A stretch of 33,876 bases of DNA from Patescibacteria group bacterium. GTDB taxonomy: Bacteria; Patescibacteriota; Patescibacteriia; UBA2591; JAQWAS01. The translations under genes and the position numbers were made by a program. Positions 348-20,154 of the stretch are shown here, piece after piece (position 1 is the first letter of the stretch; the number at the start of each line of letters is the position of its first letter). The notes beneath the pieces are model-generated. The model saw only the letters and a program-made list of their open reading frames with translations, searched no databases and was not told the origin of the DNA. Where the stretch lies: NCBI GenBank assembly GCA_028707495.1, contig JAQWAS010000007.1, forward strand, positions 1 through 33,876, given 5' to 3'.

Positions 348-1265
348 TTATTTATTTGGTGCTGGAATTATTAAAGATTGCATTGATTGAATGTATGCTA
401 CTCCATTATGATTTTCAATAATTTTGAAAGCTGGCGTTGCTGTTAATGTGTGCATAAAAGCATGATGTATAGTTAATACCGCATCTTGAAACTCTTGACT
501 GTCTTCGAGCGATTCAATCACCAAACCAAGTTCTTTGCATTTCTCATCAGATAAATGCCGTCCATGCGACAAAGTGATAGAATGACTAGTCAATTCTTTA
601 AGAATTTTAGCAATTTTTTTCTTTTTATCGGGATCATCTTTAAGCATGCGTTTTTCTAATGCATTTTTGGCAATAACCTTTGACCATTTCACAGCTTTTT
701 GACATTCGCCAATCAAGGTTGGATGATATTTAGCGATAATTGGTTGCCAAACGGCTATTTTACTATTGTCTTTTTTTATTTCTTCATGAGCTTGTTTAAA
801 TTCTTCTAAAATTCCATGGGCGGGCAAACCATTAAATTGGGGATCGATCGGACCAAGACTAGATTGTTTTCCCATTACGATTTTATTTCCAGAACAAGCA
901 ATCATTGTTCCACCAGACATGGCAAGTTGAGGCACAATTATGCGAATATCATCAAATTTTTTAGTAAGATAATCAATTATTGATTCCGTTGCAGCAACTT
1001 CACCGCCAGGAGTATGTAAAATCAAATCAAGACCCTTTGAGGAGTCTAGCTTATGAATTGCGGTCATAAAGCCGTTTTTGTCATTGTCATTTATTCCAAG
1101 CTCGCCCTGAAGTTCACGAATTTTCTTTTGCAAAAACCCACTATAATAAGCAATTACATTCCTCTTAGTTAGTTTGTGCAACTCGAGAAGATATTTCCTT
1201 CTAATAATATCATGAGTACTGCCTTGTTCTCGCAATTCATCTAAAATGTCTTTCCAGTTAGGCAT
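348..1265 (-). CDS. SDH_sah family ClpP-fold serine protease-like protein
   Basis: 305 residues of the ClpP/crotonase-fold serine proteinase family known as SDH_sah (serine dehydrogenase proteinase), related to SppA. Visible motifs are LILHTPGG (81-88), which forms the oxyanion-side turn, AMSGGTMIACS (115-125) with Ser117 as probable nucleophile, and SLGPIDPQ (136-143). The C-terminal 150 residues are charged and helical. No membrane segment is evident, although many relatives are membrane associated. It is the last gene of the leftward operon and overlaps the small upstream gene by eight bases, implying translational coupling. Association with a restriction-modification pair suggests an accessory or defence context, which is inference; the protein target is unknown. 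Confidence 0.8.
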   Translation of the reverse strand: MPNWKDILDELREQGSTHDIIRRKYLLELHKLTKRNVIAYYSGFLQKKIRELQGELGINDNDKNGFMTAIHKLDSSKGLDLILHTPGGEVAATESIIDYLTKKFDDIRIIVPQLAMSGGTMIACSGNKIVMGKQSSLGPIDPQFNGLPAHGILEEFKQAHEEIKKDNSKIAVWQPIIAKYHPTLIGECQKAVKWSKVIAKNALEKRMLKDDPDKKKKIAKILKELTSHSITLSHGRHLSDEKCKELGLVIESLEDSQEFQDAVLTIHHAFMHTLTATPAFKIIENHNGVAYIQSMQSLIIPAPNK

Positions 1266-1458
1266 AGTTTTGATTATTAAAATTAGTAAACGAAGTTGAC
1301 GAGTCAGAAATTACCCAGACATCTTTTTGTTCAAGAGATGGATGATTATTTTCTTTTTCATAGGAGAACCCACAATATTTCTGAATTTCAGACTCTTGCT
1401 TTTTAATTTTTTTAAAAGTCTCAGAAATTTCTTTTTTTGATAAATTTTTTGTAGGCAT
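1258..1458 (-). CDS. Small hypothetical protein, coupled to the SDH_sah gene
   Basis: 66 residues, rich in Lys, Glu, Ser and Asn, with a predicted helical N-terminal half (residues 5-28, lysine/glutamate rich) and a polar tail ending in an Asn-rich stretch. No signal peptide, membrane segment or known motif is visible. It overlaps the start of the protease gene and lies 13 bases after the nuclease gene, so it is very probably cotranscribed. It could be a substrate adaptor or partner of the protease, but that is only a guess from position. Confidence 0.55.
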   Translation of the reverse strand: MPTKNLSKKEISETFKKIKKQESEIQKYCGFSYEKENNHPSLEQKDVWVISDSSTSFTNFNNQNYA

Positions 1459-1471
1459 AATTTTAAAAATA

Positions 1472-2116
1472 TTAACTAGCTATTTCAAAAATCTTTTTAA
1501 CTAAACTTGTTCTTGCATAAAATGCTCGAGTAATTGGTCGGCGTTTTCCTGTCCGAGGATTTATTCCGCCAGTTCCTTTTGTTCTCGCTTGTATCCATTT
1601 TCCGTCTTTGCCTGTTAAACTTTCAAAACCGTGTTTGATAAGTTTTTCTCGGATAAAATCATAATCGGCTTTTATCTCTTTGATAAGATCGTCATCTTCG
1701 GCAAAATCTAAACTGGCGACTTTTAACAATTCAGCACTTTCAGAATTTTGACCATGCCACATAACAGCACAAAATACGATTGATTTTAGTTTTGCCCAAC
1801 AATGACTTTCAAAAAATGAATGTTGTTTTAGTTCTTCTGGGTTAATCATCGTAATTGCCATTGTTTCTTTTGGAGTAAGTTTATTTTTTACTTCATGAAA
1901 ACTGACTGATTTTAACTCATATGAAAGTCCGTTTGGTGCTTTTGAAACATTATTTTCCAATCCTGCCAATCTTTCCAAAACCAAACCTTTCCAGCCCTTG
2001 TTTTGTTTTCCTGTTTCGTAAGTTGTAATTCCGTATTGCAAAGCAAGTTTTCGCAGATCTTTTCCGATATGCTTTTTTAAATTGTTTATTGCGGTTGTTC
2101 TTGTAACTATTTTCAT
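1472..2116 (-). CDS. MutH/Sau3AI-like type II restriction endonuclease
   Basis: 214 residues resembling the MutH/Sau3AI nuclease fold. GWKGLVLERLAG (41-52) matches the conserved helix of that family with Glu48, and YELKSVSF (66-73) supplies the Glu67-x-Lys69 pair of the PD-(D/E)xK active site; PKETMAITM follows. The first acidic residue of the DxnExK motif is not obvious: Asn62 or Pro61 lies where MutH has Asp70. MutH and Sau3AI act at GATC, and the neighbouring methyltransferase resembles the GATC enzyme DpnA, so cleavage at GATC is the natural prediction. Its start lies one base after the methyltransferase stop codon, the usual tight pairing in R-M operons. The missing Asp could mean a nicking, weakened or dead enzyme. 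Confidence 0.75.
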   Translation of the reverse strand: MKIVTRTTAINNLKKHIGKDLRKLALQYGITTYETGKQNKGWKGLVLERLAGLENNVSKAPNGLSYELKSVSFHEVKNKLTPKETMAITMINPEELKQHSFFESHCWAKLKSIVFCAVMWHGQNSESAELLKVASLDFAEDDDLIKEIKADYDFIREKLIKHGFESLTGKDGKWIQARTKGTGGINPRTGKRRPITRAFYARTSLVKKIFEIAS

Positions 2117-2117
2117 A

Positions 2118-2930
2118 CTATTTTTTAGAAAGTTTATTTTTTAAATTCTTGTCCAGTTCTTCAAATCTTTTGATAGATAAATCAAGATATTGTTTTTCAG
2201 TATCTATGCCAATAAAATTTCTACCATAAAGATAGGCGGCAAGACCTGTTGTTGAACTTCCAGTAAAAGGATCTAAAATTACATCACCTTTGTTTGTGCT
2301 TGCTAAAACAATTCTTTTAAGCAAATCAAAAGATTTTTGTGTTGGGTGTTTGCCAAATTTCTTTTCAATCGGTTTTGGGGTATTGATTGACCAAACAGAT
2401 CTCATTTGTAAGCCGGGTTTTTTCATTTGATCTTCTGACCAGTCGCCATTTTTCATTAGATCGTAATTGAAAGTGTGTTTGCCTTTTTTCTCTTTTCTCG
2501 CCCAAAGTAAAGTCTCATGACTGGCTGTAAAAAATCGGCATGACAAATTTGGCGAGGCATTCGGCTTAAACCATGCAACATCATTTAGAAAATGATATTT
2601 GTTAATTTCTAAAGCAAAACCGCATTGATAAATTGAGTGATAAGTTCCGCTAATCCAAATTGTTCCGTTTGGTTTCAAAACTCGGCGACACGCTTTTATC
2701 CATTCGTTATGAAATTCAAAATTCTTTTTTGTTCCATTAGTTAAATCCCAATCACCCTTTTTTACACTGACCATTTTGCCATTTTGGCAAGTAAAACTAC
2801 CACTTGATAAAAAATAAGGAGGATCTGCAAAAATCATATCTACCGAGTTTTCAGGCAGAGAATTCAAAAGCTCCAAACAATCTGCTTGGTATAGCTTAAA
2901 TCTCGGTTTTTCGTAAAAAGGTTTTTGCAT
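2118..2930 (-). CDS. DNA adenine N6-methyltransferase, DpnA-like (probable GATC)
   Basis: 270 residues, a complete beta-class N6-adenine methyltransferase: catalytic DPPYF at 36-40, the central target-recognition region (about 45-190), HPTQK at 195-199 and the AdoMet-binding FTGSSTTG loop at 222-229. Many segments, such as DMIFADPPYFLS, VLKPNGTIWISG, NLSCRFFT, ETLLWARK and HPTQKS, read like the DpnII-system methyltransferase DpnA as I remember it, which methylates adenine in GATC. It is the first gene of the leftward operon and protects DNA from the nuclease encoded one base downstream. A TATAAT lies about ten bases before the ATG, so the message would have almost no leader. Confidence 0.88.
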   Translation of the reverse strand: MQKPFYEKPRFKLYQADCLELLNSLPENSVDMIFADPPYFLSSGSFTCQNGKMVSVKKGDWDLTNGTKKNFEFHNEWIKACRRVLKPNGTIWISGTYHSIYQCGFALEINKYHFLNDVAWFKPNASPNLSCRFFTASHETLLWARKEKKGKHTFNYDLMKNGDWSEDQMKKPGLQMRSVWSINTPKPIEKKFGKHPTQKSFDLLKRIVLASTNKGDVILDPFTGSSTTGLAAYLYGRNFIGIDTEKQYLDLSIKRFEELDKNLKNKLSKK

Positions 2931-2939
2931 AGTATATTG

Positions 2940-2968
2940 ATTATACCCTAGAAAAAATTATAAATAAA
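2940..2968 (-). promoter_or_regulatory. Probable promoter of the R-M operon (near-leaderless)
   Basis: On the minus strand a perfect TATAAT (2945-2940) follows a weak -35 TTTATT (2968-2963) with a 17-bp spacer. Transcription would start only two or three bases before the methyltransferase ATG. A second TATAAT on the same strand lies at 3045-3040 inside the inverted repeat and could give a longer leader. Confidence 0.5.
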
Positions 2969-2970
2969 TC

Positions 2971-2995
2971 GTTTCCGTAGCGGAGCGGAGGAAAC
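2971..2995. repeat. REP-like hairpin (CCGTAGCGxAGCG core)
   Basis: GTTTCC (2971-2976) pairs with GGAAAC (2990-2995) around GTAGCGGAGCGGA. The core matches the hairpin at 146-170 in the same orientation (CCGTAGCG-T/G-AGCG-A/G-AGG), while the stem bases differ in a compensating way (TTTGCC/GGCAAA versus TTTCC/GGAAA). Confidence 0.6.
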
Positions 2996-3022
2996 ACCGT
3001 ATACCCCCCTCTTTAAAAAATT

Positions 3023-3095
3023 AAAAATAAAATTTGTTCATTATAGAAAAGTGTTAGGCGTTAGCCGTAAAAAGAAAAGCATATTTCATATAACA
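3023..3095 (-). repeat. Right arm of imperfect inverted repeat flanking the R-M block
   Basis: Reverse complement of the arm at 215-290, in two conserved parts (3023-3053 and 3068-3095) around a divergent hairpin. It contains a minus-strand TATAAT at 3045-3040 that faces the methyltransferase gene. The rest of the 2931-3222 gap holds a REP-like hairpin, a hairpin at 3092-3114 and AT-rich sequence. Confidence 0.75.
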
Positions 3096-3114
3096 GGGTT
3101 TATACAAACCTGTT
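3092..3114. repeat. Hairpin with one bulged G at outer edge of right arm
   Basis: AACAG-G-GTTT, loop atac, AAACCTGTT forms a nine-pair stem with a single extrahelical G. Its loop, read on the other strand, is GTAT, the same loop as the hairpin at 181-198 on the outer side of the left arm, so both outer edges carry a GTAT-loop hairpin in matching orientation. Confidence 0.5.
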
Positions 3115-3222
3115 GAATTAAGCTTTTATTTAAGCCAAAAAATGGCTCGAAATTTGTAATCATAAACGGGTTATGAAATAAAGCTTTTTTATATTATATT
3201 ATTTATTTTCTAGTTTTACAAC

Positions 3223-4449
3223 CTACGCCCCAAACATACTAGCCAAACCCATTAAATCAATCACAATTGGCATGACGTGTCGGCCTTGGATATGGCCTAA
3301 GCGGCCACGGGCGCATTCGCGTTCATTAAAGTGCTCGACATCATCATCGCGAATACCTTGGCTGTAAATAGTAATCGGTACGTCATCAGCACTGTGGGCT
3401 TTTAAGGCACAAGGCGTGGAATGGTCAGCAGTGACCACAATTAAAGAATTTTCTAAATCAAGTAAAGGCTTAAGAGCTGGATCAATTTTATTTTCAATAA
3501 AATCTTTTTTGCCTTGCCAATCCCCGTCTTCACCTAGGGTGTCAGTGCCTTTAAAATGTAATAAAAAGAAATCATAATCATTATAAATTTCTATTAACTT
3601 ATCAACCTTAACTTTTAAATTTGAATCTGGTTTGCCAGTGGCTTGCGGATCAAGGTCAATGACATCCATCCCCACAATTTTAGCAATACCGCGGTAAAGT
3701 GCGCCACCGGCAATACAAGCAGAGTTTAAATTATACTTTTGTTTAAAGCTTGGCATTTCAGGCATGATGCCAGCGCCACGGACTAAAAAATAATTAGCTG
3801 GCAAAAGGCCCTGTTCTTGGCGTTTTTTGTTGGTCGGTAGGTCTTTTAATCTTTGATAGGTCATATCTAAGAATTTATTCAAAACCTCAGCTGTTCTTTT
3901 GGCTTCGGGTGTGTCTTTGGTGGGTTGAGATAACTTAATTTTAGCATTTTCAATATGTGGATCACAGTCACTAATATCGCCACTTAAATTTTCACCGCGC
4001 ATGATCATGGCGACGCGATGACCAATTGAGCTTTTTAAAATAAATTCCACGCCGTCAATTTTAGTGCCATTGAACATGTCAGCAAATTCTGAAGTGTCAT
4101 CAATACGGCCGGCGCGTCGATCAACAACGTTTAAATTTTCATCCACCGTACCCATATTAACTCGAAAAGCCACATCACCGGTTTTTAATTCTAAACCAGC
4201 GCCAGCGACTTCGAATGGCCCACGGCCAGTGTAGTAAGTGTAAGGATCATAACCAAAAATAGCCAAATGGCTGGTGTCGCTACCTGGGCGGATACCAATG
4301 TCAACGGCGTGCATAGCACCGGATATGCCTTTTTGGACTAAATGGTCTAAATTGGGCGTTTTGGCGGCTTCTAACGGGGTTTGGTTGTTGAGTTCGGGGA
4401 TAGGTCGATCGCCTAAACCATCGCAGATTACAAAGATAACTTTTTTCAT
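3223..4449 (-). CDS. apgM: 2,3-bisphosphoglycerate-independent phosphoglycerate mutase, archaeal type
   Basis: 408 residues of the alkaline-phosphatase superfamily, of the archaeal-type iPGM subfamily common in candidate phyla. It interconverts 3- and 2-phosphoglycerate in lower glycolysis in the cytosol, using two metal ions. Visible motifs are ICDGLGDRP (8-16) with metal ligand Asp10, GIRPGSDTSHLAIFGYDP (52-69) with the phosphorylated serine in GSDTSH, the RGPFEVAGAG strand, the HFKGTDTLGEDGDW metal site and VTADHSTPC near the C-terminus. Length is typical. It is leftward and separated from uppP by a MITE-like repeat, so it is probably transcribed alone. Confidence 0.92.
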   Translation of the reverse strand: MKKVIFVICDGLGDRPIPELNNQTPLEAAKTPNLDHLVQKGISGAMHAVDIGIRPGSDTSHLAIFGYDPYTYYTGRGPFEVAGAGLELKTGDVAFRVNMGTVDENLNVVDRRAGRIDDTSEFADMFNGTKIDGVEFILKSSIGHRVAMIMRGENLSGDISDCDPHIENAKIKLSQPTKDTPEAKRTAEVLNKFLDMTYQRLKDLPTNKKRQEQGLLPANYFLVRGAGIMPEMPSFKQKYNLNSACIAGGALYRGIAKIVGMDVIDLDPQATGKPDSNLKVKVDKLIEIYNDYDFFLLHFKGTDTLGEDGDWQGKKDFIENKIDPALKPLLDLENSLIVVTADHSTPCALKAHSADDVPITIYSQGIRDDDVEHFNERECARGRLGHIQGRHVMPIVIDLMGLASMFGA

Positions 4450-4487
4450 AGATTTATGTTTTTTATAAATTTTTATTGATTTTATAT

Positions 4488-4692
4488 TGTCATGCTGAAT
4501 TTCTGCTCGTCAAATCGGCGGATGTTTCAGAATCTATTAACGCTAGAGATTGTCATTCCTGGCTTGACCAGGAATCCAGGATTGGTCGCTATTAACCTTT
4601 TTTTGAAAAAGTCTTTTAAATTTAACAAAGCTTATTCTAAAAAACAAGAATGCATATATTAACACTGGATCCTCGCCTACGCGAGGATGACA
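4488..4692. repeat. MITE-like / paired-palindrome intergenic repeat, copy A
   Basis: The core at 4551-4692 starts TGTCATTCCTGG and ends AGGATGACA, so its termini are inverted, and each end is itself palindromic (CCTGG-cttga-CCAGG; CCTCGC-ctac-GCGAGG). A further half-unit, TGTCATGCTGAA to CAGAATCT, lies at 4488-4534 and contains GGCGGAT. The right-hand part matches 14648-14681. Such TGTCAT/ATGACA elements are widespread non-coding repeats; no ORF is inside. Confidence 0.75.
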
Positions 4693-4705
4693 CTTTGGTA
4701 AGCTT

Positions 4706-5467
4706 CTATATTATATTTACCAAAACAATAATCAACCCCACAAACCAACAATAAAAACTAAAATACCAGAATTTATTATGTTGGATTAATTTTAATAACC
4801 AATTAATAACTAAATAAGAAACTAACATAGCCGTTAAGGTGGCAATTAAAATTGGTAGCCAATCAGCTTGAGCTAAGTGATTTATTTCTAAAATTGAAGC
4901 ACCTAAAATAGCTGGCAAAAAAATTAAAAAAGAAAAAGTCGTGGCAGTTTTTCTATCAACGCCTAAAATTAAACCTGTGCCGATAGTTGAGCCACTACGA
5001 GAGATGCCAGGAATAATTGCTATGCCCTGGGCCAAACCAATTAAAATAGATTTAGCGGGAGTTAATTTTTTATCGCCAGTTTTACGAGTTAAAAATAATA
5101 AGCTACCAGTCAAAATTAAGGCGATACCAACCATCAAAACATTAGAAAATAAACTTTCAATTAAATCTTTAAAAATTAAACCAATTAAGGCTGTGGGAAT
5201 GGAAGCTAAAATTATATAAATAATTAATTTAAATTTAGGATCGTGAACCTGCCAGGTAAACAAAATTTTTAAAAGTTGCCAAATTATTTTTCTAAAAATA
5301 AAAATTACCACCAAAGCCGTTCCAAAATGGAGCATCAGATCTAGCGGTAAAGGTTGAGAAATTTTAAACCAATTTTGAACAATAACTAAATGACCTGAGC
5401 TGGAAATTGGTAGCCATTCAGTTATACCTTGAATAAGGCCGAGGATAAATGCTTGATAAATAGGCAT
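4706..5467 (-). CDS. uppP: Undecaprenyl-diphosphate phosphatase
   Basis: 253 residues, almost entirely hydrophobic with about seven or eight membrane segments. It recycles the lipid carrier for peptidoglycan and other wall polymers by removing a phosphate from undecaprenyl diphosphate at the membrane. The family signatures are intact: GITEWLPISSSGHL (14-27) with the catalytic Glu17, Ser and His26, and PGISRSGSTIGTG (153-165) with Arg157. Length is normal for UppP/BacA. It lies downstream of the lipid-kinase-like gene and the bactofilin gene on the same strand, which makes a loose envelope gene cluster. No SD sequence is seen. Confidence 0.93.
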   Translation of the reverse strand: MPIYQAFILGLIQGITEWLPISSSGHLVIVQNWFKISQPLPLDLMLHFGTALVVIFIFRKIIWQLLKILFTWQVHDPKFKLIIYIILASIPTALIGLIFKDLIESLFSNVLMVGIALILTGSLLFLTRKTGDKKLTPAKSILIGLAQGIAIIPGISRSGSTIGTGLILGVDRKTATTFSFLIFLPAILGASILEINHLAQADWLPILIATLTAMLVSYLVINWLLKLIQHNKFWYFSFYCWFVGLIIVLVNII

Positions 5468-5544
5468 ATAGATTAGGTGTTAGTGTTTAGGTTGTAGCGA
5501 GTAGGGATTAGTTGTTGGTTGTCAGTTGTTAGTTACAAGTTATT

Positions 5545-6282
5545 TTAAAATAAGCGATTTTTACCCACGATGATATCAATTTTAGCTTTGGCAATATGAA
5601 TAGCTACGGGCGTTTTTAAGATTTTATTGGTTTCAGTTTTAAGCGGTAGATTTTTTTTACCTTGGCTTTTGATAATTAATTTTTTGACTAGAAATAAACT
5701 CCGGCGGTCAATTTTACTAAACAAAGATTTTTTTTGTGGCCAAAAAACAACTTCTAATTTATCATCAGCTGGATTAGATACCCAATTGTCAAAACTACCC
5801 AAATTAGTAATTAAAATGGTTTGTTGCGGATAGAGTGATTGAATTTCGTATTGGCCATCGCAATCAATAACAAAGTCAGTGCCAGATAAAGTAATAGAGC
5901 CCAAAAAATATTCATCGAGGATTCTAGCTAAATTAACTGTTTTTAATAAACGATTGGCGATTTGCAAGCAAGCTTTTTTGCCATTTTCTATGCCCAAGCC
6001 GTAGCTTAAATGAGTTTTATTAATTGGAATAAAACCGATTTTAACTTTTAAACTTGGTAGATTATTAATCAATTTATTTAAAGTGGCATCATCACCAACA
6101 GCAACAAAAGTTTGTACGCCTTTTTTATATGATTCGCGTAGAGCTTCTTTTAAATTGCGTAGAGGTGTAAGTTTAAAAAGTCGACCATCAATCCCGAGGT
6201 CAACTAGTTGAGTCTCTATTTCTTTTATTTGAGTAGAATATTTTTTTTGATTCAAAAACGAATCAAAGAAATAGAAATACAT
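5545..6282 (-). CDS. Diacylglycerol/lipid kinase-like protein (degenerate GGDGT loop)
   Basis: 245 residues resembling the catalytic domain of the diacylglycerol/sphingosine/YegS lipid kinases, followed by the beta-sandwich half of that fold. The nucleotide-binding strand reads FVAVGDDATLNKLINNL (59-75), where typical members have (V)GGDGTxNEVxN; the glycine-aspartate pair is kept but GGDGT is changed to VGDDAT. Later segments (GFIPINKT, a YGLGIENGKKA helix) follow the family pattern, where GxxPxGTxNDFA is usual. The changes suggest altered substrate use or loss of activity. It sits between bactofilin and uppP, consistent with an envelope role. Assignment rests on motif pattern only. Confidence 0.6.
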   Translation of the reverse strand: MYFYFFDSFLNQKKYSTQIKEIETQLVDLGIDGRLFKLTPLRNLKEALRESYKKGVQTFVAVGDDATLNKLINNLPSLKVKIGFIPINKTHLSYGLGIENGKKACLQIANRLLKTVNLARILDEYFLGSITLSGTDFVIDCDGQYEIQSLYPQQTILITNLGSFDNWVSNPADDKLEVVFWPQKKSLFSKIDRRSLFLVKKLIIKSQGKKNLPLKTETNKILKTPVAIHIAKAKIDIIVGKNRLF

Positions 6283-17080: not shown

Positions 17081-17155
17081 GGTGGCCATAGTTCAATGGT
17101 AGAACAGCGGGTTGTGGTCCCGTTAACGAGGGTTCGATTCCCTCTGGCCACCCCA
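17081..17155 (+). tRNA. tRNA-His (GTG)
   Basis: The extra G-1 (17081) opposite C73 that identifies histidine tRNAs is present, with acceptor GTGGCCA/TGGCCAC, anticodon loop TTGTGGT (anticodon GTG), T-arm GAGGG-TTCGATT-CCCTC and an encoded CCA at 17153-17155. Its 3' end is the apparent integration target for the island to the right. Confidence 0.95.
17136..17154 (+). repeat. att-like direct repeat, left copy (tRNA-His 3' end)
   Basis: GATTCCCTCTGGCCACCCC, covering the 3' half of the T-arm and the acceptor strand of tRNA-His, recurs exactly at 18420-18438. This is the classic mark of site-specific integration at a tRNA 3' end. Confidence 0.75.
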
Positions 17156-17159
17156 AAAA

Positions 17160-17187
17160 AACGTCTCTCTTGTGAGAGGTGTTTTTT
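17160..17187 (+). terminator. tRNA-His intrinsic terminator
   Basis: ACGTCTCTC (17161-17169) with GAGAGGTGT (17174-17182) makes a nine-pair stem including two G-T wobbles, then a T-run. With the preceding ACCCC and A-tract it recurs at 20108-20145 with one base changed in the loop. Confidence 0.8.
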
Positions 17188-17199
17188 GTTTCATAAAAA

Positions 17200-17333
17200 A
17201 TGTCTAATTTTAAGTGAATTTATTAAAATTAAAAATGTCCAACTTTAAAACAAGTTTGGCTTAAAATAAGGATTAAGACGTGTGAAAATGTCCAATTTTG
17301 TTAAAAAATACTTGCCAAAAAATGTCCAATTTG
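17200..17333 (+). repeat. Four direct repeats ATGTCCAATTTT upstream of the HTH-ATPase gene
   Basis: Copies: ATGTCTAATTTT (17200-17211), ATGTCCAACTTT (17235-17246), ATGTCCAATTTT (17288-17299) and ATGTCCAATTTG (17322-17333), with start-to-start distances of 35, 53 and 34. All are on the same strand, preceded by A-runs. The last lies exactly inside the 17-bp promoter spacer. They look like regulator-binding sites for the MerR-like protein encoded next, or iterons. Confidence 0.8.
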
Positions 17334-17340
17334 ATATATT
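17312..17340 (+). promoter_or_regulatory. Promoter giving a leaderless mRNA for the HTH-ATPase gene
   Basis: TTGCCA (17312-17317), 17-bp spacer, TATATT (17335-17340). The expected start is at 17347, the A of the ATG itself. The spacer is filled by the fourth direct repeat, the position where MerR-family regulators bind. Confidence 0.7.
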
Positions 17341-17346
17341 AAATAT

Positions 17347-18069
17347 ATGTTAGATATAAACAAAACAGCAAAAATGCTTGGTCTAAATCCTAAGACTCTT
17401 CGTCGTTGGGATAATTTGGGTAAGTTAAATTCTGTGAGAGAAAAAAAGGGGGCACATCGCTATTACAATTCCAGTGATGCCGTTGATTTTTTAAGAAAAG
17501 ATTATAAATATATGTTTAAGGTTGCTTATAGATGGACTTTAGCAAAAAACCCACCTGAGACATTTGATGAACTTTATTGTAGAGATAAATTTGTTTTTAA
17601 AGCACGACTTTCATCTTTAGCAAACTTATTACAGAAACAAGACGATCCTCAATATAAGTTTCCACTATTGATTGCTATGATTGGTGAAATTGGTAATAAT
17701 TCTTTTGATCATAATATTGGGAATTGGCCTAATCTTCCTGGAATATTTTTTGGTTATTGTTTGAAGTCAAAAGAAATTATTATTGCTGATCGAGGGCGTG
17801 GTGTTTTAAAAACATTAAAGGTTGCTAGGCCAACACTGAAAAATGACGCTCAAGCATTAAAAGTGGCTTTCACTGAAATTATTTCTGGTCGTCAACCTGA
17901 AAATAGAGGTAATGGACTAAAGTTTGTTAGAAGGAATATCGTATCACAAGATATGTGTCTTGTTTTTCAATCAGGCGTAGCTCAAGTTCAAATTGACAAG
18001 AAGAATGATTTAAAAATAGTTGAAACAAAAAAGAATCTAAAAGGTTGTTTAGCCACAATAAAATATTAA
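17347..18069 (+). CDS. MerR-like HTH fused to GHKL-type ATPase domain
   Basis: 240 residues. Residues 1-50 form a MerR-like DNA-binding head: AKMLGLNPKTLRRWDNLGKL (8-27) followed by the wing HRYY (37-40). Residues about 105-240 form a GHKL ATP-binding domain of the histidine kinase/anti-sigma type: N-box EIGNNSFDHN (114-123), G1 box DRGRG (148-152), G2 box RGNGL (187-191) and a final LKGCLATIKY strand. No phosphorylatable dimerisation histidine domain is evident, so it resembles an anti-sigma-like switch tethered to DNA. It lies ten bases before a STAS-like gene, mirroring SpoIIAB/SpoIIAA partner switching. It is preceded by four direct repeats and sits in the tRNA-His island. The trigger and output are unknown. 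Confidence 0.8.
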   Translation: MLDINKTAKMLGLNPKTLRRWDNLGKLNSVREKKGAHRYYNSSDAVDFLRKDYKYMFKVAYRWTLAKNPPETFDELYCRDKFVFKARLSSLANLLQKQDDPQYKFPLLIAMIGEIGNNSFDHNIGNWPNLPGIFFGYCLKSKEIIIADRGRGVLKTLKVARPTLKNDAQALKVAFTEIISGRQPENRGNGLKFVRRNIVSQDMCLVFQSGVAQVQIDKKNDLKIVETKKNLKGCLATIKY

Positions 18070-18079
18070 GTTAAAAAAT

Positions 18080-18364
18080 ATGATTATAAAATTAGAAAAA
18101 TTTGGCGATGTTCTCACCTCTCGCGATGATGGACGTGAAGCTTATAAAGCAATTCAGCCAGAAATAAACAGTAGATCAAAAGAAGAAAAAATAATTTTAG
18201 ATTTTACTGGGGTTTTTAGTTTATCTCCATCTTGGGCTGATGAATTTGTGACTAATTTAAAAAAAGATTATGGGGATAAACTTGAGTTAAAAAATCTCAG
18301 TAATCCTTCGGTTAAGGAGACATTAAAAATGCTTGAAAAGATTGAAGATTTAGGTTTAATTTAG
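18080..18364 (+). CDS. STAS-like (DUF4325-type) protein
   Basis: 94 residues of a small alpha/beta domain resembling STAS-like DUF4325 proteins: strand KIILDFTGVFSLSPSWADEFVTNL (37-60), then YGDKLELKNLSNPSVKETLKMLEKI (64-88). The first strand and following helix occupy the place of the anti-anti-sigma D-S/T-G loop of classical STAS proteins, with Ser47, Ser49 and Ser51 as possible phosphorylation sites; none is proven. It is the direct partner gene of the HTH-GHKL protein, with the same orientation and a ten-base gap. The pair probably works as a kinase/phosphoprotein or bind-and-release switch (inference). Confidence 0.72.
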   Translation: MIIKLEKFGDVLTSRDDGREAYKAIQPEINSRSKEEKIILDFTGVFSLSPSWADEFVTNLKKDYGDKLELKNLSNPSVKETLKMLEKIEDLGLI

Positions 18365-18419
18365 ATAATTTTGATATAGTAGCGCCCCTTAGCTTACCCC
18401 ACGAGTGGTAAGTGTAAAT

Positions 18420-18438
18420 GATTCCCTCTGGCCACCCC
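18420..18438 (+). repeat. att-like direct repeat, second copy (tRNA-His 3' fragment)
   Basis: Exact 19-bp copy of 17136-17154, with no tRNA 5' half before it. It lies 55 bases after the STAS-like gene, so it bounds a segment of about 1.28 kb that holds only the two-gene system and its repeats. A hairpin (CTTACC...GGTAAG, about 18393-18412) lies just before it. Confidence 0.75.
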
Positions 18439-18457
18439 TTGAATTATCAATTTAAAA

Positions 18458-18481
18458 TAGCCCCGTAGGGGCTGTTTTGTT
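18458..18481 (+). terminator. Intrinsic terminator
   Basis: AGCCCC-gta-GGGGCT (18459-18473) followed by GTTTTGTTTT. It closes the two-gene operon or the inserted segment. Confidence 0.8.
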
Positions 18482-18510
18482 TTGACAAGGGGGGTAAAGT
18501 ATAATAAAAT
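18482..18510 (+). promoter_or_regulatory. Promoter of the thermonuclease gene
   Basis: TTGACA (18482-18487), 17-bp spacer, TAAAAT (18505-18510). An overlapping TATAAT at 18500-18505 is too close (12 bp) to this -35. Confidence 0.6.
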
Positions 18511-18556
18511 GGCATTAAGATAATAAATAATTTTATGTCTGAGAATATAAATATGA

Positions 18557-19774
18557 ATGTTTAAGAAAAATAAAAACAAAAAACCTTTTTGGAAGAAATG
18601 GTGGATTTATACGCTAGCTTTTATAATTTTTATTATAGTAATTGGTTCTGTCGTTTCACAAGGTAAACCGATGTTTAGAGGTGTTGAAAGAATATTTTAT
18701 TCGACACCCGTAAATATAGAGGGATATAATGTTGATCCTAATGCGGCCGTTAATATTATATTAAATAACGAAAAAGTGGAAACCGTAAAATCAGATGAGG
18801 GAGGAAATTTTTATTTTTCACTTAATCTAATTGAAGGTGAAAATACTTTTAAAGTAAACACAACTACATCAAAGGGTAAGTTTAAGGAAAGCTTAATAGA
18901 AAAAATAAATTATATAATAGAAAGACCAGAAGAAATAGAGGGAGCCGATCTATTAGAGGATACAGATAATAATGATAACAATTTAAACATTAAGGGAATA
19001 AATGAGAGTGAAGACAAAAATAAGGGTAAAATAAATGTTGACCCAGAAAACGAAAACCAATATCAAGAAGAGGATACTAATCAAACACAAACAGGTGAAG
19101 AATTAGGGGAAGATGAGGAAATCAATAATGATGATCAAACACAATATTATCCAGTTGTTAGGGTGGTTGATGGAGATACAGTAGTTGTAAAGATAGATGG
19201 AGTAGATGAAACCTTAAGATTAATTGGTATAGACACTCCGGAAACAGTTGATCCAAGAAAGCCCGTTCAATGTTTTGGAATCGAAGCCAGCAATAAAGCC
19301 AAGGAGTGGCTCTCGGGTAAAATGGTCGAATTAGAAAGTGATCCAAGTCAAGACGAAAGAGATAAATATGGGAGACTTTTAAGATATGTTAGGATTCAAG
19401 AGGGTTTATTTTACAATTTAGAAATTATAAAGCAAGGTTATGCTCACGAATATACTTATATCATTCCTTATAAATATCAAACTGAATTTAAAAACGCCGA
19501 AGATTACGCCAGGGAGAATGAATTAGGGTTGTGGCATCCCGATGCTTGTCAGGAGGACACAGTGGCTCCCGAGGAGGCTGGAAATGAACAGGAAGTAGAG
19601 GATGACCAACCAACTGATCAGACCTATAATTGTTCAGAAAATGTATATAATTGTGGTGATTTTGCGACACGTGCAGAAGCTCAAGTGGTTTTTGATTATT
19701 GTGGAGGAATTAGTAATGATATTCATAGATTAGATAGTGATGGTGATGGGATAGTTTGCGAGAACTTACCCTAG
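18557..19774 (+). CDS. Membrane-anchored thermonuclease with C-terminal excalibur domain
   Basis: 405 residues. A basic start and one membrane helix (about 15-34) are followed by a beta-rich Ig-like segment (about 48-120), an acidic Asn/Glu-rich linker (125-196), a staphylococcal-nuclease domain (199-328) and an excalibur calcium-binding domain (358-405, ending DSDGDGIVCENLP). The nuclease residues are visible: VVDGDTVVV, RLIGIDTPE and DKYGRLLRYV. It would cut extracellular or cell-surface nucleic acid in a Ca2+-dependent way, plausible for a cell that scavenges nucleotides or takes up DNA. The ATG at 18557 has no SD. A 9-codon ORF from a better-looking ATG at 18535 overlaps it, so a one-base frameshift in a longer N-terminus is possible. 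Confidence 0.88.
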   Translation: MFKKNKNKKPFWKKWWIYTLAFIIFIIVIGSVVSQGKPMFRGVERIFYSTPVNIEGYNVDPNAAVNIILNNEKVETVKSDEGGNFYFSLNLIEGENTFKVNTTTSKGKFKESLIEKINYIIERPEEIEGADLLEDTDNNDNNLNIKGINESEDKNKGKINVDPENENQYQEEDTNQTQTGEELGEDEEINNDDQTQYYPVVRVVDGDTVVVKIDGVDETLRLIGIDTPETVDPRKPVQCFGIEASNKAKEWLSGKMVELESDPSQDERDKYGRLLRYVRIQEGLFYNLEIIKQGYAHEYTYIIPYKYQTEFKNAEDYARENELGLWHPDACQEDTVAPEEAGNEQEVEDDQPTDQTYNCSENVYNCGDFATRAEAQVVFDYCGGISNDIHRLDSDGDGIVCENLP

Positions 19775-19889
19775 ATTAAATATAACCATATGATAATTTA
19801 AAACGGCTCAATTAGAACTGTTTTTTGTTTTTGGGATGTGATATTATGAAATATACACCGTTTATAATATTGAATTAGATTTACTTAAG

Positions 19890-20041
19890 ATGTCTAAATT
19901 AATACACAATCAAAAAAATCATTAGTTAAACAATTGTGTATATGTTGTGGTGGAAAAAATAAAAAAACAAATAAAGAACATCTTTTTCCTGCTTGGTTGT
20001 TAAAAAAAAACAAAAATAAACTAAAACGAGTTAATTTATAA
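19890..20041 (+). pseudogene. HNH-like CxxC...EHLFPAWL protein, frameshifted N-terminal fragment
   Basis: Adding one A to the seven-A run at 19912-19918 joins the ATG at 19890 to a frame reading LCICCGGKNKKTNKEHLFPAWLL and ending at TAA 20039-20041. CxxC followed by (T)KEHxFPxWL is the start of a family of HNH-type nucleases, normally much longer. About 50 codons remain. The rest of 19775-20193 holds AT-rich sequence, a terminator-like CGGCTCAATTAGAACTG-T-run near 19804, and the tRNA-tail repeat at 20108. Confidence 0.6.
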
Positions 20042-20107
20042 ACAAAAATTAGGAACGGAAATACCCTTCACTCCCACCAAACAGGTTCTAAGTTGTTCCC
20101 CTATCAG

Positions 20108-20145
20108 ACCCCAAAAAAACGTCTCTCTTGCGAGAGGTGTTTTTA
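20108..20145 (+). repeat. Duplicate of tRNA-His tail and terminator
   Basis: ACCCC, seven A, then the hairpin CGTCTCTC-ttgc-GAGAGGTG and T-run match 17150-17187 with a single loop change (T to C). It acts as a terminator and marks the probable original right side of tRNA-His before insertions separated it from the gene. Confidence 0.75.
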
Positions 20146-20154
20146 TTTATAAAT

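Follow-up and report, generated by a model that had tools for sequence, protein, structure and literature searches.

What is a segment of about 1.28 kb that lies between two copies of a tRNA end and carries only two genes, and how did it come to lie there? The segment is found in a stretch of 33,876 nucleotides from a Patescibacteria genome (hereafter the window, meaning the whole stretch that was analysed). A sequence-only reading had claimed that exact 19-bp copies of the tRNA-His 3′ end bound it, that it holds a MerR-like HTH fused to a GHKL ATPase followed by a STAS-like protein, and that no integrase or toxin is present; the pair, it proposed, could be an undescribed signalling, immunity or element-maintenance switch. 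These claims were followed up computationally.

The segment and its boundaries

The features of the segment and its immediate flanks are as follows.

17082..17155, + strand: tRNA-His(GTG), the insertion target, whose 3′ end is the upstream repeat copy (ARAGORN)
17136..17154, + strand: upstream 19-bp att-like copy of the tRNA-His 3′ end (exact repeat)
17155..17190, + strand: hairpin A, terminator-like, after tRNA-His (RNA fold −14.4 kcal/mol, z −6.3)
17347..18069, + strand: ORF1, 240 aa, MerR/BldC-type HTH (residues ~1-51) fused to a GHKL ATPase/kinase-like domain
18080..18364, + strand: ORF2, 94 aa, DUF4325 STAS-like protein
18420..18438, + strand: downstream 19-bp att-like copy of the tRNA-His 3′ end (exact repeat)
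18453..18485, + strand: hairpin B, terminator-like, after the downstream copy (fold of 18440-18495: −19.6 kcal/mol, z −3.6)

The direct repeat (GATTCCCTCTGGCCACCCC, 19 bp) is exact and its two copies lie 1284 bp apart, start to start, confirming the boundaries that had been read. No other copy exists in the whole genome (857 kb, 19 contigs), even allowing 2 mismatches, and a reversed control pattern gave 0 matches in the same 857 kb. Between the copies lies a single operon, ORF1 then ORF2, and the repeat-bounded segment contains neither an integrase nor a toxin gene, as had been claimed. By itself, the flanking repeat is only marginally above the chance repeats of such segments (35.6 bits, compared with 34.6 for the best of 258 controls, in which the repeated sequence is not a tRNA end). 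It is the duplication evidence from the wider family, presented below, that makes it convincing.

Hairpin A is probably element-borne and hairpin B is probably the earlier terminator of tRNA-His. The sequence of hairpin A (17151-17179) recurs once in the genome, at 20109, past a nuclease-domain gene. The stretch beyond the downstream repeat (18439-20150) comprises this SNase/Excalibur nuclease-domain gene (18557-19774) and an HNH-like gene fragment (~19940-20010), ending at the 20109 terminator copy. This layout fits two successive insertions at tRNA-His, the ORF1-ORF2 unit being perhaps the later.

The two proteins

The N-terminus of ORF1 is a MerR-type HTH (Pfam, 2.7e-7), which also matches the NCBIfam family HTH_BldC at 1.6e-6, under that family's curated cut-off. 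A Pfam search of ORF1 did not detect the GHKL domain. An alignment of 59 relatives revealed that the N-box (114-122; E114, N118, H122), G1 (148-152; D148, G150, G152) and G2 (187-190; R187, G188, N189, G190) are invariant or nearly so. The AlphaFold2 model (pLDDT 93.7) resembles the ATPase domains of GyrB, TRAP1 and PDK (Foldseek probability up to 1.0, best E 1.4e-3, the E-values for both proteins being modest). ORF1 thus has both the boxes and the fold of a GHKL (Bergerat) protein, and the claimed fusion, a kinase-like half with its own DNA-binding head, is upheld. In the model only helices lie between the HTH and the GHKL sheet, with no STAS fold inside ORF1. The HTH also resembles the phage transposase/excisionase families phrog_6620 and phrog_66, and IS607. 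Matches to PADLOC mad1 were discarded, the HTH alone accounting for them, and profile searches found no toxin family in ORF1 or ORF2.

ORF2 is a DUF4325 protein (Pfam PF14213, 5e-10; 39.3 bits, cut-off 23), in agreement with the earlier reading. Its model (pLDDT 94.7) is a single STAS-like fold, with no wHTH in its 94 aa, and is similar to RsbS and stressosome STAS subunits (TM ~0.6, Foldseek significance low). The best profile match among solved chains is VapS (9z7o), although this is weak (E 0.16). S51, within a PSW motif, is invariant in 53 sequences and sits at a helix start in the model. Judging from the folds, this invariance and the precedent of the serines phosphorylated in CapS (S54) and VapS (S48) (PMC13373217), Ser51 is the candidate phosphoacceptor.

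Distribution and linkage

Of 380 genomes sampled from the phylum, ~47 contain homologues at the level of the GHKL domain (counted from rows with E < 1e-19). A named collection contributed 11 loci, from Uhrbacteria, Kazan, Lloydbacteria, Moraniibacteriota, other Patescibacteria and one Izemoplasmatales bin. In 72/72 homologue loci examined (70 non-redundant), the next gene downstream, in the same orientation, is DUF4325-like. This constant linkage, together with the GHKL and STAS-like folds, supports a pairing that resembles partner switching. Neighbour clustering of the homologue loci revealed no recurrent effector or immune operon beside the pair, and no linked sigma factor was seen.

A repeat array at the promoter

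Upstream of ORF1 the window contains the following.

17199..17211, + strand: putative operator repeat 1 (AATGTCTAATTTT)
17234..17246, + strand: putative operator repeat 2 (AATGTCCAACTTT)
17287..17299, + strand: putative operator repeat 3 (AATGTCCAATTTT)
17312..17340, + strand: predicted sigma-70-like promoter, TTGCCA-17 bp-TATATT (pattern scan, putative function)
17321..17333, + strand: putative operator repeat 4 (AATGTCCAATTTG), in the spacer of the predicted promoter

Only 6 bases separate the end of the predicted −10 box from the ATG (window 17335-17347), and therefore the operon transcript may be leaderless.

HTH-bearing homologues carry 2-4 direct repeats similar to TTTGCATAGATTTA upstream of the start codon. 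Scored with a leave-one-out matrix, 53 such loci contain 112 sites, compared with 8.5 after dinucleotide shuffling and 14 when the reverse strand is scored. Spacings of 10, 20, 21 and 41 bp predominate, placing the repeats on the same face of the helix. The 17 HTH-less loci have 5 sites, confined to 3 loci, two of which (L114, L074) are apparent remnants of HTH-bearing genes. Moreover, residue 16 of the recognition helix covaries with repeat bases 4-6 (32 loci; z 8.8, permutation p 2e-4, a statistic inflated by the relatedness of the loci). D16 occurs with GCA, Q16 or M16 with GTA or TTA, and N16 with GGG or GTG, a pattern which makes the DNA targets of the HTH predictable. Residue 16 ranked top and residue 20 second among the HTH positions scanned, and both are in the recognition helix. 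Given this covariation and the lack of an array in HTH-less homologues, it is very likely that the HTH of the kinase-like protein binds the repeat array.

The motif is ~25 times denser upstream of the operons (99 matches in 15.4 kb) than elsewhere (236 in 911 kb). The array of the window, whose ORF1 has K at position 16, consists of four copies similar to TGTCCAATTTT (17199-17333, spacing 35/53/34), which depart from the family consensus and phasing. The rest of its genome holds one further single exact site (contig C5) and no other array; a match to the canonical motif at window 4442 was judged to be chance. Because the motif is dense upstream of the operon and has only one further site in this genome, autoregulation appears to be the only well-supported target of the HTH. 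Locus L063 is an exception: 1.9 kb from its operon, on the upstream side, a Fic-family gene is preceded by a nearly identical array. AbiE-like genes and a nucleotidyltransferase-like gene are found near this Fic-family gene, which is possibly an effector under the same switch or the scar of an older insertion.

Flanking duplications and an empty site

About a dozen loci show the unit between duplicated ends of a neighbouring gene, the copies being ~1.1-1.5 kb apart start to start (~2.2 kb in L063, where one extra gene, a third, is enclosed). Flanking duplications of at least 36 bits were found for 10/65 operon segments and for 0/258 control segments of equal length from the same loci (Fisher 6e-8), and were extended by gapped and protein-level comparison. 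For roughly four fifths of the homologue loci a flanking duplication is undetectable. The duplicated ends are as follows.

Window: tRNA-His 3′ end
L101: tRNA-Ser with its terminator, 84% identity
L056: HU 3′ end, 222 bp
L061 and L060: polA 3′ end
L106: opposite-strand stretch, interpreted as the 3′ end of a gene
L088: RNase HI-like C-terminus, at protein level
L068, L086, L108 and L065: further flanking repeats
L097: promoter/5′ end

Two candidates, both with HTH-less homologues, were set aside: L120, a repeat-rich promoter and start of a transposase-like gene, and L071, two related neighbouring genes. The differences between the two HU copies are mostly synonymous (7 vs 2 of 57 codons), as expected if the unit brought the functional gene end of another lineage; L061 and L088 are uninformative in this respect. 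An empty site is also seen, since polA abuts mutM in genome G186, whereas the unit and a polA fragment lie between polA and mutM in G081 and L060. Hence the view of the segment as mobile and tRNA-bounded gains support from both the duplications and the empty polA-mutM site. Both predicted folds were found, and across the family the pair is not confined to ordinary, immobile chromosomal positions.

In 8/70 loci a same-strand tRNA gene (four times His, four times Ser) is found no more than 350 bp upstream, compared with ~0.7 of 70 expected from tRNA density (a hand calculation). Units of the same genus, with ORF1 76-85% identical, are found in non-syntenic places (L077/L082, L083/L089), and one same-genus pair (L078/L081) is syntenic. 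When the duplicated ends were compared between loci by eye, no common core was obvious, a finding that speaks against a single dedicated integrase. The unit of the window has no recombinase, and a search with one Xer-like query (from L146) found relatives in only 3/72 loci, none within a bounded unit. Thus, of the hallmarks of an integrative element, target-end duplication and an empty site are present and an integrase of its own is absent. No excised circle of the unit was seen. In L053, upstream of the operon, the tRNA-His 3′ end is duplicated (13 bp) ~100 bp downstream of the tRNA, suggesting that this tRNA has undergone more than one round of insertion and loss.

Phage relatives and alternative explanations

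Plasmid and phage collections searched with ORF1 yielded only distant Streptococcus GHKL proteins (~27%). In Streptococcus phages a GHKL ATPase and a DUF4325-type protein occur beside lysin/integrase genes (L122 3677-4866, L123 2677-3866, L157 1555-2833). These phages were rejected as the source and are regarded as cousins; DUF4325 adjoins GHKL in LYGO9 and Javan140, the two loci inspected. A viral scan with a single sequence found nothing, and the same scan with an alignment found one phage-like contig, L159 (IMGVR_UViG_3300022555_001665). This IMG/VR contig carries, at 1032-5708, terminase genes, a large serine recombinase and, directly after the recombinase, an HTH-GHKL gene, and so a phage of Patescibacteria may carry the switch. 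The Streptococcus pairs near lysin/integrase genes and the position of the L159 gene make control of lysogeny or excision a live rival. In its most specific form, ORF1 would be mainly an excisionase/RDF-like accessory, with the array as a recombination arm (cf. Xis, RdfS) and the GHKL/STAS pair timing excision by a recombinase acting in trans. Besides the phage arrangements, the resemblance of the HTH to excisionase families and IS607, and the position of the array between the upstream insertion end and the operon, are consistent with this. However, the repeats have the position of an operator, overlapping the predicted promoter immediately ahead of the start codon, and the two-gene units contain no recombinase. 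Moreover, HTH-less homologues without arrays retain the pair, which therefore has a role without the array. We regard an excisionase-like ORF1 as unlikely. There is a modest chance that the pair is instead what remains of larger prophages or islands after loss of the integrase, and that the two-gene unit is not itself mobile. The terminase and serine recombinase beside the operon in L159, and the third gene between the duplications in L063, point in this direction, and the second copy of terminator A at 20109 makes a larger or nested island possible at the window. Yet just this pair is enclosed by duplications 1.1-1.5 kb apart in about twelve loci. Had each locus decayed independently, the remnants should differ, and so the recurrent short spacing argues against a leftover.

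That the pair is a CapKS-like defence regulator, or one of toxin-antitoxin type, acting on unlinked or neighbouring effectors seems improbable. CapK-CapS and VapKSC are immune switches (PMC13373217), and the array before the L063 Fic-family gene would suit such a role, but neighbour clustering gave no recurrent effector and the genome of the window has no second array, only the one extra single site. Finally, it is highly improbable that this is an ordinary chromosomal regulator pair beside a chance repeat or decayed tRNA fragment. The score of the window flanks just above the best control and the synteny of L078/L081 would be compatible with it. Against it stand the occurrence of the exact 19-bp tRNA end only twice in the genome, the family-wide duplications, the empty site and the non-syntenic positions, with independent insertions at different sites in close relatives partly seen.

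A probable self-regulating mobile switch

On balance, and with some reserve, we favour reading the segment as a minimal two-gene switch that regulates itself and moves horizontally. Through its MerR/BldC-type HTH, ORF1 would bind the direct repeats at the promoter of its own operon, as the comparison of loci strongly supports, and would repress that operon. The folds, the invariant residues and precedent suggest that its GHKL domain is a serine kinase of the CapK/SpoIIAB kind that acts on ORF2. The phosphorylation state, and so operon expression, may shift in response to a signal, which as with CapK is perhaps single-stranded DNA. The unit lies behind the ends of tRNA or housekeeping genes and brings its own copy of the target end, so that the target stays functional, as the duplications show. 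Since no recombinase is encoded, movement would need a recombinase in trans or homologous exchange through the duplicated ends, and the payload would be the switch itself. We hold more tentatively, as a rather doubtful extension, that these units are a new minimal class of mobile element, in which a kinase/STAS switch is its own sole payload and spreads between Patescibacteria with the end of the adjacent gene, the HTH head serving as both repressor and control of excision or exchange.

If the favoured reading holds, a kinase/partner switch of a type recently tied to the control of phage immunity has been pared down to two genes, has had its DNA binding transferred to the kinase, and moves independently among ultra-small bacteria, in which gene exchange is poorly understood. 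Inserted repeatedly next to tRNA and housekeeping genes, and apparently controlling only itself, it would rank among the smallest mobile regulatory units known. Duplications without a recombinase also pose the concrete question of how such small units move.

Comparison with known systems

The earlier description of the switch as new has to be narrowed, since the general pairing of a GHKL kinase with a STAS protein is already known. In CapK-CapS ("controller of associated pathways") and VapKSC, GHKL kinases phosphorylate STAS proteins; CapK is activated by ssDNA and phosphorylates its partner at a conserved serine (PMC13373217, EMBO J, June 2026). CapK-CapS and the pair described here share adjacent genes, an HTH-bearing GHKL kinase or kinase-like protein followed by a STAS protein, and an invariant serine on a STAS helix. 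CapK-CapS is autoregulated, as ORF1-ORF2 probably is. However, CapK has an internal STAS domain which ORF1 lacks, and CapS has a wHTH that binds palindromes, whereas ORF2 is bare and the HTH of ORF1 itself is matched to direct repeats. CapK-CapS precedes an immune operon; nothing of the kind follows ORF1-ORF2, which forms a mobile unit by itself. VapKSC likewise combines a GHKL kinase with a STAS protein, to which ORF2 is weakly similar, but includes a VapC-type toxin that is missing here. The logic of GHKL kinase and STAS substrate is also that of SpoIIAB-SpoIIAA, RsbW-RsbV and RsbT-RsbS, and the ORF2 model resembles RsbS and stressosome STAS folds, although here there is no linked sigma factor and the DNA-binding head is on the kinase.

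BldC is a MerR-like wHTH without a coiled coil, a lone domain of 68 residues that binds closely packed direct repeats of variable number (PMC5859096). In the present family, by contrast, the HTH belongs to a larger protein with a GHKL ATPase domain, and the repeats are spaced at 10, 20, 21 or 41 bp. Integron cassettes and CIMEs, the latter cis-mobilisable, integrase-less and att-flanked, are likewise short, lack a recombinase and have recombination sites or target-end duplications at their boundaries. CIMEs derive from ICEs and vary in content, whereas in the present family one gene pair is found again and again beside unrelated target genes, with no obvious common core site. Taken together, these comparisons point to a known GHKL/STAS switch in a new form, with putative kinase activity and a presumed signal and mobilisation route: only the kinase-like protein bears a DNA-binding domain, its STAS partner lacks a wHTH, no effector is attached and the whole is a minimal mobile unit.
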